From Myotis daubentonii (lineage: Eukaryota > Chordata > Mammalia > Chiroptera > Vespertilionidae), in assembly GCF_963259705.1 (NCBI RefSeq), contig NC_081846.1, forward strand, positions 93,446,641 through 93,510,640: a stretch of DNA of 64,000 nucleotides, given 5' to 3'. The notes under the pieces are model-generated. The model made no database searches, was not told where the DNA came from, and worked only from the letters and a program-made list of their open reading frames with translations. The position numbers were made by a program, and so were the translations under genes. Positions 29,939-35,990 of the stretch are shown here, piece after piece; the stretch's first letter is position 1, and every line of letters begins with the position of its first letter.

Positions 29939-30678
29939 TCCTATATAATAAAAGCCTAATATGATAAGTGTCCAGTCGTCTGTTTGGCAGTTCAACTGAT
30001 CAAAGCCTAATATGTTAATGATATGCTAAGGCCGCTCAACCACTCCACATGACATGCACTGACCACCAGGGGGAAGAGAGTTGACCAATTGCTATGACGT
30101 GCACTGACCACCAAGGGGCAGATGCTCTGACTGGTAGGTTAGCTTGGTGCTGGGGTCCGGCTGGCTGGTCAGGACTGAGTGAGATGGGCCAAACACACCC
30201 TGGAGCCCTCTTGAGGTCCCTCCCTGGCTGGCCAACCTCCCGTCCCCTCCCCAGCCCCTTTCGTGCACTGGTGGGGTCCCTCAGCCTGGCCTGCGCCCTC
30301 TCACAATCTGGGACCCCTTAGGGGATGTTGAAGAGCCGATTTCGGCTATACAGTGGGACAACCAGTCACTATGACATGCACTGACCACCACGGGGCAGAC
30401 ATTCAATGCAGGAGCTGTCCCCTGGTGGTCAGTGTGCTCCCACAGGGGGAGTGCCACTCAGCCAGAAGTTGGACTCATGGCTGGTGAGCTCAGTGGTGGT
30501 GGCGGGAGCCGCTTTTGCCTCCACAGCAGCCCTAAGGATGTGCGACTGACGGCTTAGGCCCACTCTTAAGCCATCAGTTGGACATCCCCTGAGGTTTCCT
30601 GGACTGTGAGAGGGTGCAGGCTGGGCTGAGGCACCAACCCCTCACTGAATGCACAAGTTTTATGCACCGGGCCACTAG
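29939..30678 (+). mobile_element. non-autonomous Helitron (HeliBat-type)
   Basis: It starts TCCTATATAATAAAAGCC after A29938 and ends GCACCGGGCCACTAG before T30679. The interior repeats the GCACTGACCACCA block at 30056, 30101 and 30380, and holds an inverted pair of the block around 30386-30429. No gene. Confidence 0.94.
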
Positions 30679-31094
30679 TAGATAAATAATCTATGGTGGA
30701 ATATGTTGTTTGAGATGGGTGAGCAAAGAGGAATGAGGTTCTGAACATGGAAAGGATGAGTAAAAATTGTTTTCTGGGGAAAATACTACCTCTCATTCCT
30801 GGGGACACCTGACTGCTCCTAAGTCTGGTGGATTCTTCATGTGAGTGGGAGACCATGTGCTGAATTTGGATTACAAAGTGGAATGTGCTCTTCCTCATTG
30901 AAATATGGGTGTTTCAGAGTTGTGCTCACGAGTAACTATCATCCTGTAGTCTACCATCCTGCCTTTTGTTTTAGGAGACATCTTTATGTGGTAGAAGGAG
31001 AAAAGCCTTGCTTGGAGTACGATTCTGAGTGTCCTGGGCAGGGAACCGACCTGGGCAAGCCCAGGGAGCTGGCTGCCCTGTGGAGCAGCACACA

Positions 31095-31200
31095 GGGGGA
31101 GCAACTGGTTCTGTTACTTACTAGAAATATGACCTCCGGCAGGTTCCTCACCTGATCTGTGCTTCAGCTTCCTCATCTATAAAATGCAGACAATAACAAA
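31095..31200 (-). repeat. MIR fragment cut by Helitron
   Basis: CAGCTTCCTCATCTATAAAA with upstream GGTTCCTCACCTGATCTGTG is reverse-oriented MIR text, ending exactly where the Helitron at 31201 begins. Confidence 0.7.
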
Positions 31201-31589
31201 TCCTATCTAATAAAAGAGAAACATGGTAATTAGCCGTACATCCACTACCCTTCCCATTGGCTAATCAGGGCGATATGCAAATTAACTGCCAACCTAGATG
31301 GTGGTTAACCGCTAACAAAGATGGCGGCTAATTTGCATACTGAAGGCAGGGTAGGACAGTGCAAGCTTCCATCCAGGCTCCCATGTGCCATCGGGGCAGG
31401 CGGGGGCTGGGGCCAAGGCAAGCAGTGCTGATCACTTCCACTGCCTACCAGAGACAGGGGGCCCACTCCTGTGTGCGACCCGGGGGTGGGCAGGGGATCA
31501 GCGGCATCACTTGCCTTAGCATGAGCCCCGCCCGCCCGCTGGGAGCCATCCAGCTCAGGGCCAGGAAGACAGGAGGCCACCCTGGAGCG

Positions 31590-31925
31590 CTGGAGCCACC
31601 TGGCTCTCCCAGCTGTCCGCGCTTCATGAATCCCAATTTTCCGCGGAGGTAACTGCTGCAGGACCCAGAGGGGGAGACAGGGGAGTGGGCCAAGCGCAGC
31701 TCTGGCTTGGGCTTGATGGAGGGCACCCGCGCGTGGAGGAGATCTCCCCAGGGGGCAGCGACTCCCCCTGCCGCTGGGGAGATTTCCTCTGCGCCGGTGC
31801 CCTCTGTCCAGCCCGAGCCACACTCAGCCTGCTCCCCTGTCTCCTGCTCTGCGTCCTGCAGCCGCTGCCTCCGGGGAAACTTGAGATTCATGAAGCAAGG
31901 GCGGTGGGGAGGAGGAGGCACCTAA
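31590..31925. repeat. long imperfect palindrome inside Helitron
   Basis: The left arm (CTTCATGAATCCCAATTTTC ... GGAGGGCACC) and right arm (GGTGCCCTCTG ... GAAACTTGAGATTCATGAAG) are inverted copies meeting near 31766. The innermost part, GGAGATCTCCCCAGGGGGCA against TGCCGCTGGGGAGATTTCC, is the best matched. The right arm runs directly into the FZD1-like fragment, so the palindrome may be an inverted duplication of captured 5' sequence. Confidence 0.85.
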
Positions 31926-32210
31926 GAAGTCCCAGGCCTCCAGCGCAGGGAGCTGGGAACTTTGTGCCAGGCGCTCCCGGTGGGGCAATGGCAGAGGGGA
32001 GCTGGGACTCTGGCCACCACTGCCGCCGCCCCCCAGCTGGCTCCGGGCACTTGGTGCGCTGGCTACTGCTGCTGCATTGGCTGCTGGAAGCTCCGCTGCT
32101 GCTTGGGGTCCAGGTGCAGGAGGCTGGCCAGGGGCCTAGGCCAGGTCAGCAGCCCCTGCCGCGGCCTCAGCAGCAACAGAGAGGGCAGCAATATAATGGT
32201 GAGCAGGGCC
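31905..32210 (+). pseudogene. FZD1: captured Frizzled-1 N-terminal fragment
   Basis: In one plus frame the fragment reads EEEAPKKS and then SWELCA. After a frameshift it reads LLEAPLLLGV, then QEAGQGP, then PQQQQ and GQQYNGE. This order and spacing match the N-terminus of mammalian FZD1 (Wnt receptor): acidic start, signal-peptide core, Gly/Gln/Pro linker. The cysteine-rich Wnt-binding domain that should follow is absent; similarity ends near 32210, just before a GA repeat. The expected ATG is not preserved. FZD1 is a single-exon gene, so the fragment could derive from genomic DNA. Non-functional as a receptor. Identification is from memory of the family. Confidence 0.82.
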
Positions 32211-32244
32211 TGAGCCCCGCCCGCACACCCGGACACGGGGCCCT

Positions 32245-32289
<45 letters not shown>
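32245..32289 (+). repeat. (GA)n microsatellite
   Basis: About 22 GA units at the edge of the captured segment. Confidence 0.97.
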
Positions 32290-32292
<3 letters not shown>

Positions 32293-33490
32293 GAATTTGG
32301 CACCCCTCATCCCTCCCTGATCAACCACTGTGATTCAGGCCAGCGAGGGCTGCCTTTAGGCCGCAGCTCCAGGTCCTCATCCCCACCCCAGGCCCGAGAG
32401 CACAGTGCTGGGCAGAAGCACCCAGTGGTTCGGGAATGCAGCGCAGCAAGGGGCCAGCACGAGGTGGGGGCGGGGGCTGTGTTTACACCACGAAGTTCCC
32501 CACTTCTGCCCTGGCCCATATCCCTCCTCCTTCCCCTCAGAGGCCCAGCTCCTGCCTACATGCTTGCTGGGCAGGCCCAACTGCACCGGAGAGTGAGTTA
32601 TGGCAATCAGGATGGCCACTTCCTGGGATGGGATGGCCAGACCACGGGGATTCATGAGGGCAATGAGGCCCATGGGGCATGCACAGCCCTCCGGCAGTGG
32701 GTGTGGCTGGCCAAGCTGAGTCTGGCTACAGTGGGGCCAGTGGGAGCCCGAGGCCACCCCAACCTCCACAGGTCCTGGGCGGACGGTGGCTCATTGGAGT
32801 GTGGTATCTCCATGCATGGTGCCCAGGGGTGGCTGTGAGCTGCTGAAACCCCACCCCACGCTTCAGGGAGGGGGAGAAGGCTCATAGCCACCAGCACCCT
32901 ATGCTGCACCGCCTGGCCTGTGCCTCAGCCTGCCAGGTTGGCAGGGTCCAGAGAAGGTGAGCTGTTCCCTTCCCCCAGTGGTAGAACAGGGAGGAGAGCG
33001 CTGGGTGCAGGGAGGGGACCTCCGCTGGGATCCTGCTGGTGTGGGCCCAGGCAGGGGCCGGTGCAGAAGTACCAGGGCACAGTTGCTTCGGTGTCTCAGT
33101 GAAGTTTGCAACTGACCCAAGGAGGAAACCCGAGAGGGGAAAGGCCGGGAGGCATGAATTGCTAGCACTGTAGCCACTTGAAAACAGCTCCACTTGGAAT
33201 GTGAGGTGATTGTATGTTCAGCTGAGAAGTGAGGGGGCTGAACTCCACCGTCGCTGGGCTCCTGTCAGTCCGAGGCCCAAGCGTCCACCACGACAAGGAG
33301 AGAACAGAGCGAGGGGCCTGGAGGAAGGGAGGACAATTGAAGAAAACCATGTCTAGACTTTCCCCAGCCCTCTCCTTCTTTCTGCTGCCTACAAGAGGCC
33401 CAGGCCCGGCCACAGTTCTGTGTCCACCTTTTAGTCCCCTATTCTCCAACCACAGAGGAAAGAAATAAGGAAGGAGTCTGTGCTGCCTTC
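32290..33490. other. unidentified GC-rich cargo of the Helitron
   Basis: No homology to the other Helitron interiors in this window was seen. Open frames on both strands (e.g. plus 32425-32838 and minus 32377-32769) show no recognisable domain. It is likely further captured host DNA, perhaps from more than one locus. Confidence 0.5.
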
Positions 33491-33677
33491 AGAAAGTATC
33501 TATATACCTGATCAGCCCAGTTGCCTTCCACAGAGGGAGGCCAGACTTCGGCTTAGGCCCACTCCTCACAGGGACATCAGTAGGACTTCCTGTGAGGGCT
33601 CCCAGACTGTTAGAGGGGGCAGGCTGGGCTGAGGGATGCCCCCTGAGTGCACAAATTTTTGTGAACTGGGCCACTAG

Positions 33678-33681
33678 TATT

Positions 33682-33741
<60 letters not shown>
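33678..33741 (+). repeat. (TA)n(CA)n microsatellite
   Basis: It begins within a few bases of the Helitron 3' terminus and runs TATATA into a long CA tract. Confidence 0.96.
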
Positions 33742-34757: not shown

Positions 34758-35990
34758 TCCTATCTAATAATAGAAAAACATGGTAATTAACCATAGCTTT
34801 GCTACCCTTCCCATTGGCTAATCAGGGTGCTAGGCAAATTAACTGCCAGCCAAGATGGCGGCCGGCAGCCAGGCAGCTGAAGCAAACAGGAGGCTTGCTT
34901 GCTCCAGTGATAGAGGAAGCCAAGGTTCCCCGCCTGCCGCTGCCGGCCTCTGAGCTGCACTCTAAGAAACAATGTTTCAATTGTAGAACCTAAACAATCC
35001 TCAGAAACCTGCTTTCAGCCGTCAGAGCTGGAGCAAGCAGGACCCCAACAGTGTTACAATTATAGAACCCCAAAAAACCCAGAGACCTGCTTTCAGCAGC
35101 CGAGGTCTCAGAGCTGGAGCCAAGCCTCAGAGCTAAGGCCGGCTTTCAGCTCCAGTGACAGACATAGAAGGTAAATAAATCCCAGAATAATAAAAAAAAA
35201 AGACAAAAAGGAGAGGTTGGGAGCTTCAGTCACCCGCCAGCCTGAAAATGGCCCTCAGCCCCTCACCCAGGCTGGTCAGGCACCCCAGTGAGGACCCCTA
35301 CCCTGAAGGGGGTGTGACCAGCTGCAAACAGCCATCATCCCCTCACCCAGCCTGGCCAGGCACCCAAGCAGGACCCCCACCCTGAAAGGGGTGTGACCAG
35401 CTGCAAACAGCCATCAGCTCCTCATCCAGGCTGGCCAGGCATCCAAGTGGGACCCTTAACCTGATCTGGGACACCCTTCAGGGCAAACCAGCCAGCCCCC
35501 ACCCGTGTACCAGGCCTCCATCCTATATAGTAAAAGGGTAATATGAAAACTGACCCTAACAGCAGAAGGACTGGGAATAACTCATCACTATGACACACAC
35601 TGACCACCAGGGTGCAGACTCTCAATACAGGAGTTGCCCTGTGGTGGTCAGGTCGCTCTCACATGGGAGGAGCACTGCTCAGCCACAAGCCAGGCTAATG
35701 GCTGCCAGTACAGCGGTGGTGGTGGGAGCCTCTCCTGCCTCCTCAGCAGTGCTAAGGATGTCTGACTGCAGCTTAGGCCTGCTCCCCACTGGCAAATGGA
35801 CATCCTCCAAGGGCTGCCGGGTTGCCAGAGGGATGTCTGATTGCCATCTTAGGCCCAATCCATTTGGGAGCGGGCTTTAGCCAGCAGGTGGTCATCCCCT
35901 GAGGGGTCCCAGACTGTGAGAGGGCACAGGCCAGGTTGAAGGACCCCCCTCCCCCCTAAGTGCACAAATTTTTGTGCACCGGGCCTCTTG
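34758..35990 (+). mobile_element. composite Helitron (two units end to end)
   Basis: Unit 1 starts TCCTATCTAATAATAG after A34757 and bears an exact YY1 motif CAAGATGGCGGC (34851-34862). It ends CACCAGGCCTCC-type at 35520 (here GTACCAGGCCTCCA). Unit 2 starts TCCTATATAGTAAAAGGG at 35521 and ends GGGCCTCTTG at 35990 (CTAG mutated to CTTG). A ~60-90-bp tandem array (35230-35450) lies near the end of unit 1. Confidence 0.92.

Follow-up and report, generated by a model that had tools for sequence, protein, structure and literature searches.

A Helitron family in Myotis daubentonii has dispersed a Frizzled-1 fragment bearing a fold-back inverted duplication

A 64,000-nucleotide stretch of Myotis daubentonii DNA (the window) holds a Helitron that carries the 5' part of the Frizzled-1 gene (FZD1). 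We are confident that this copy belongs to a single Helibat-type family with one FZD1 capture, in which the gene piece would have entered the element's internal minisatellite in collinear form, been reshaped by a fold-back and trimmed at its right end, and then been amplified. The 5'UTR part of the cargo is a fold-back inverted duplication, a feature missed by the original prediction for this DNA. The features of the window copy are as follows, native coordinates being those of the genome's own FZD1 locus (L072).

31201 to 33677, plus strand: whole non-autonomous Helitron with the FZD1 piece, 2,477 bp, limits TC after A and CTAG before T
31201 to 31304, plus strand: Helibat-type 5' terminal region, 84-87% match to the Helitron starts at 34758, 48332 (minus strand) and 22439
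31378 to 31531, plus strand: one or more internal minisatellite units preceding the captured piece, from repeated HSPs of element bases 178-296 and junction sequences
31532 to 31749, plus strand: FZD1 5'UTR in native orientation, L072 1991-2201, 79.9% over 219 columns, E 2e-51
31592 to 31922, no strand: palindrome of 331 nt, arms 31592-31754 and 31771-31922, identical columns 124/163
31753 to 31911, minus strand: inverted copy of the FZD1 5'UTR, L072 2224-2066, 85.5% over 159 columns, E 1e-48
31909 to 32209, plus strand: FZD1 coding fragment, L072 2285-2587, 88.9% over 306 columns, E 1.3e-110
31988 to 32248, plus strand: 86-aa ORF in the FZD1 frame with a derived ATG (native GTG, Val), ending in the minisatellite
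32198 to 32203, plus strand: donor-like GTGAGC (native GCGAGC), a candidate splice site, GTGAG in 36/45 copies
32210 to 32248, plus strand: minisatellite remnant right of the capture, CTGAGCCCCGCCCGC..., similar to the sequence left of the capture and to L060, an element without FZD1
32249 to 33677, plus strand: (GA)n tract and Helitron tail, common to relatives without FZD1 (L057-L060)
33647 to 33677, plus strand: 3' terminal hairpin GTGCACAAATTTTTGTGAAC (imperfect) and CTAG end

Both limits of the element are exact, and its ends are intact and lie between A and T flanks, as had been predicted: the A at 31200 is followed by TCCTATCTAATAAAAG, TC starting at 31201 (element base 1), and GGGCCACTAG, whose CTAG closes at 33677, is followed by T. 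The two ends differ in sequence from each other, and the first ~104 and last ~130 bases match the ends of other Helitrons within the window. The hairpin GTGCACAAATTTTTGTGAAC, imperfect in this copy, stops 11 nt short of the 3' end; Helibat-type elements as a rule have a short palindrome at about this distance (accessible text of PMC4778049). In its ends, its A/T insertion and its 3' palindrome, the window element is of the Helibat type, and ends of this type suggest a vesper-bat host. A search for a RepHel transposase gave no Pfam match in the FZD1-side frame, and seven ORFs of the tail and arms gave only three sub-cutoff DUF matches; because no transposase was found in the stretches searched (this frame and these ORFs), the Helitron is classed as non-autonomous. 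The repeat number at element bases 178-296 varies among other copies, and sequence resembling TGAGCCCCGCCCGCCCGCCGGG, part of this internal minisatellite, flanks the FZD1 cargo on both sides.

The surroundings of the window copy hold further repeats. A second, shorter Helitron-like unit of 740 bp, with the same orientation, precedes the element by ~500 bp (29939-30678, running from TCCTATATAATAAAAG to GGGCCACTAG before a T). The left flank (31078-31196) resembles a MIR SINE, with 87/124 matching columns and a score of 47.5 against a MIR consensus, none of 200 shuffles exceeding 15.0; the right flank, taken as the possible other half of a MIR split by the insertion, had a score of 19.5, with shuffles reaching 19.5 without and 18.0 with the (TA)n(CA)n microsatellite that adjoins the 3' junction at 33680-33741.

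The peptides encoded within the element had been attributed to the N-terminus of FZD1, and protein and DNA comparisons bear this out. A PDB search (177,635 distinct sequences, E ≤ 10) returned only two Frizzled-1 chains (E 1.4e-5 and 1.7e-5), and a protein search returned four matches (best E 3e-21), three named Frizzled-1 and a fourth, unnamed, with the same Pfam domains as these. A frameshift-aware alignment spanned residues 3-117 of panda FZD1 with 77 of 119 columns identical and one frameshift, scoring 305 compared with at most 62 in 30 shuffles. The native FZD1 gene was the second strong match, on C11, in a genome search with a fragment of copy L061; this locus, L072, has its ATG at L072:2279; residues 1-287 of panda FZD1 match it at 93% and residues 571-651 at 98%. 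The alignment to bat FZD1 suggested by the original prediction gave 88.9% for 31909-32209, with 5'UTR sequence just upstream, and the blocks matching L072 (31532-32209) uphold the proposed capture of a 5'UTR plus N-terminal piece. That piece, for which the original prediction had also allowed for promoter sequence, reaches from 288 nt upstream of the FZD1 ATG into the coding region; the transcription start of human FZD1 mRNA presumably lies further upstream. The coding fragment spans codons 3 to ~103, without the native ATG. Independent support for both the forward and the inverted 5'UTR block comes from P0006, a protein that reads a mammalian FZD1 5'UTR in another frame. Its match on the plus strand, from 31626, scores 98 (at most 54 in 40 shuffles), and that on the minus strand, from 31891, scores 125 (at most 46 in 40 shuffles).

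At the right edge, the FZD1 match stops near 32209-32214 and gives way to LSPARTPGHGAL, which is Helitron minisatellite. A continuation of FZD1 into 32210-32248 was ruled out by the minisatellite present there in the copies and in an FZD1-free relative, and because the minisatellite stands there, the residues 'P.HG' at the alignment end are a chance extension. Chance or low complexity as the source of the FZD1 homology was likewise ruled out, by the PDB, protein, frameshift-aware and native-gene alignments. Searches of viral_contigs and genome_contigs for FZD1-like or Helitron DNA returned nothing useful.

Compared with the native gene, the cargo is ordered in three blocks, 1991-2201 forward, 2224-2066 inverted and 2285-2587 forward. 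The resulting palindrome is the sole inverted repeat of at least 60 nt with arms within 600 nt in the window, and when folded as single-stranded DNA it reaches -127.7 kcal/mol (z -12.7), with none of 100 shuffles as good. The forward arm ends just past GGAGATCTCC, itself a palindrome (native 2190-2199), the inverted arm starts, in native coordinates, ~22 nt beyond the point where the forward arm ends, and at the return junction the inverted arm joins FZD1 codon 3. Short stretches of bases are shared at the junctions (by eye, about GGC at the fold-back and GAG at the return). The original prediction had placed the cargo in the orientation of the Helitron, which is right for the coding fragment and for 31532-31749 but not for the inverted 5'UTR at 31753-31911. 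It had also described a lost ATG and frame; the ATG is indeed gone and the frame shifted, but the start codon is missing because the inverted duplication removed it, that is, through rearrangement and not slow decay.

Dispersal of the cargo, which had been raised as a possibility, is evident from at least 42 palindromic copies in the same genome, the window copy included. A genome search (2.13 Gb) with 31600-32300 (701 bp) gave 46 candidates, 40 of which were scored; all 40, the window among them, were copies, at 78% identity and up, and other searches added L056 and L074. A tail query (32320-33520) gave 208 first-look candidates, 40 of them scored. The cargo carriers found thus comprise at least 42 palindromic copies, two collinear ones (L061 and L073) and one partial one (L075). 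Capture junctions were compared across copies, again as originally suggested, and proved to be common: all six FZD1 limits agree in 33 of the 42 palindromic copies (left limit, 40/42; forward-arm end, 37/42; inverted start, 39/42; inverted end, 42/42; coding start, 40/42; coding end, 42/42), the other nine being without at least one limit through later change or alignment breaks. A self-inverted match of at least 100 nt is present in 41/42, L054 having lost its forward arm. Genome-wide, a 34-nt pattern of the inverted/coding junction (up to 3 mismatches) had 37 matches and its reversed control had none; every match falls in a panel copy, with none in L028, L029, L048, L052 or L074.

The ends of the palindromic copies follow the same rules as those of the window copy. 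Among 36 placeable 5' ends, 27 show TC after A and six stand directly after another Helitron's CTAG, and CTAG before T closes 36 of 40 placeable 3' ends. At least nine of these 40 run into another Helitron start (L019, L020, L022, L023, L024, L048, L050, L052 and L074), the first four being one array. Exact head-to-tail junctions, with CTAG directly followed by TCCTATCTAATA, were read in L024 and others; such junctions are expected from circles or from repeated insertion at the same T. The four array copies (C4:7.69-7.76 Mb) are near-identical and recur every ~19.4 kb, as if a segment containing the element had been duplicated in tandem, so that independent insertions number fewer than 42. Some 170-200 extra tail bases near element base 1845, absent from the window copy, occur in L039, L045, L047, L055 and others, as well as in most FZD1-free and both collinear relatives.

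Relatives that lack the palindrome bear on the order of events. Four of them, L057-L060, have the Helitron ends and tail without FZD1 (L058 bears an inverted repeat of its own of at least 100 nt, unrelated to FZD1). In L061 and L073, native 1991/1998-2607 is kept in native order with its ATG, and a search for self-inverted matches of at least 100 nt found no palindrome in these two copies or in native FZD1. Their cargo, ~617 bp of FZD1 (L072 1991-2607) covering 5'UTR and the first ~110 codons, sits between minisatellite units, as read directly in L061 and from the borders of both copies. Since native 2225-2284 and 2593-2607, missing from the palindromic form, persist in L061 and L073, the palindromic form would be derived, unless there were two captures, and the two collinear copies likely represent the intermediate state of the cargo. 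The reading with two captures, in which a variant FZD1 or a duplicate would have contained the palindrome before the Helitron captured it, L061 and L073 stemming from an independent capture of the ordinary gene, is in our judgment unlikely. It could draw on the differing right border of these two copies (native 2607) and on their clustering, with moderate support, with FZD1-free tails, but native FZD1 is without such a palindrome, the left borders correspond (L061, native 1991; L073, native 1998; 40/42 palindromic copies, native 1986-2010), and L061, L073 and the palindromic copies have left flank and tail in common.

Trees of the tail and of the palindrome arms agree weakly with the palindromic form as the derived one. 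In the tail tree, from which six of 49 sequences with incomplete tails were left out (L021, L036, L038, L046, L052 and L075), the six non-palindromic copies group together (UFBoot 56), collinear L073 pairing with FZD1-free L060 (64) and L061 standing near L058/L059 (21). With midpoint rooting, these six fall inside the palindromic copies and are not basal; the tail tree leaves the order unsettled, so the FZD1-free relatives could include later losses. The arm tree unites all 42 inverted arms in one clade with one of 41 forward arms (UFBoot 72) and gives L061 and L073 no firm placement. Among the 18 copies with a CACTAG end (153 pairs), non-CpG tail distances, calculated after dropping three of the four tandem C4 copies, average 3.5%; for the 68 pairs that set a palindromic against a collinear copy, the mean is 5.9%. 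The bat substitution rate is about 2.2-2.7e-9 per site per year, which would give ages, indicative only, of ~7-8 My and ~11-13 My, respectively.

For the favored history of one capture followed by a fold-back, we propose the following course. After collinear capture of FZD1 within the internal minisatellite, the growing strand would have switched template at or near GGAGATCTCC during replicative transposition, used the opposite strand as template for ~160 nt and returned to the original template at FZD1 codon 3; a further deletion would have trimmed the right end of the cargo before the rearranged element spread, mobilized, to judge from its ends, by a rolling-circle transposase supplied in trans. 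The replication fault, read from its product only, would be microhomology template switching, as the layout of the two joins, with ~3 shared bases at each, is what a double template switch should leave. In the accessible text on Helraiser, lagging-strand synthesis is proposed on the peeled-off strand and double-stranded circles are shown (PMC5876387), and 3' read-through is proposed as a capture route (PMC4778049). As the cargo lies inside the minisatellite, repair or recombination at the repeat may fit better than simple 3' read-through. The excess of at least 42 palindromic over two collinear copies, with antisense identity of at least 21 nt kept in 16/49 sequences, could also suggest that the fold-back benefited the element, its hairpin aiding replication or double-stranded RNA antisense to the FZD1 5'UTR touching Wnt-receptor expression in germ cells, an idea that we regard as quite improbable.

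As a protein, the FZD1 piece most likely does nothing today. The hydrophobic core of the FZD1 signal peptide is retained in the window copy's 86-aa ORF, and the GTG to ATG change that opens this ORF is present in 29/45 copies. An ORF of at least 87 codons arises in 12.45% of 2000 shuffles. Of the 43 derived copies (the 42 palindromic ones and L075), 39 have a disturbed FZD1 frame, with a gap length not divisible by 3 or a stop, although some gaps may compensate each other. A conserved coding function was set aside on the grounds of this disturbance and of the loss of the ORF from most other copies, and in the window copy the signal-peptide ORF is probably without function. It is very improbable that the ORF and the donor-like site yield a secreted or chimeric product, or that the hairpin yields small RNAs against FZD1. 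The frequencies of the derived ATG and of GTGAG would speak for such roles, as would the 16 sequences with an exact antisense match of at least 21 nt to the native 5'UTR, but the frame disturbance, the loss of the signal peptide by frameshift in many copies, the ease with which shuffles produce such an ORF and the window copy's longest antisense match of 14 nt all speak against them.

An FZD1 retrocopy or segmental duplication bracketed by separately inserted Helitron ends and then mobilized whole is scarcely credible: FZD1 has a single coding exon, so the absence of introns cannot separate a retrocopy from a capture, but only the 5' part of FZD1 is present and its 3' end is missing, the cargo is embedded in the Helitron's own minisatellite, and both Helitron ends are common to dispersed copies.

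Gene capture by bat Helitrons is established. The main survey of Myotis Helitron captures, reportedly that of Thomas et al. 2014, was outside our reach and may list FZD1; a literature search for Helitron capture of FZD1 or frizzled found none by title or the start of the abstract. The FZD1 case appears to combine a capture of the usual kind with a later fold-back that altered the cargo ahead of its spread, and our search found no prior description of it. In Myotis lucifugus, the promoters of 15 genes were captured in 4,690 Helitron copies, and HelibatN3 carries the captured promoter and first exon of NUBPL (accessible text of PMC4778049). Like HelibatN3 as described there, the FZD1 element is a non-autonomous bat Helitron with a captured and multiplied 5' part of a host gene, 5'-TC and CTAG-3' ends and an A/T target; unlike it, the FZD1 element derives its cargo from another gene, as 5'UTR and coding sequence, its cargo was apparently later folded back into a palindrome, and its donor-like site is a derived change within coding sequence, not a captured splice site. 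With Helraiser/Helibat1, as far as presented in the accessible parts of PMC4778049 and PMC5876387, it has in common the terminal motifs, 3' palindrome, A/T insertion and head-to-tail junctions, and it differs in its length of 2.5 kb, the lack of a transposase in the stretches searched and its imperfect 3' hairpin. Maize gene-capturing Helitrons, likened here by general description alone, likewise take along and disperse pieces of host genes.

The way in which Helitrons acquire host genes remains a matter of dispute. Here, one genome keeps the donor gene, a collinear capture that is the likely intermediate, and the rearranged, multiplied descendants, and both the capture and the fold-back junctions of this Helitron family are readable at base level. 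Template-switch models thereby become testable across vesper bats, and the dispersal of a gene 5' end minus its start codon sets a trap for gene annotation.
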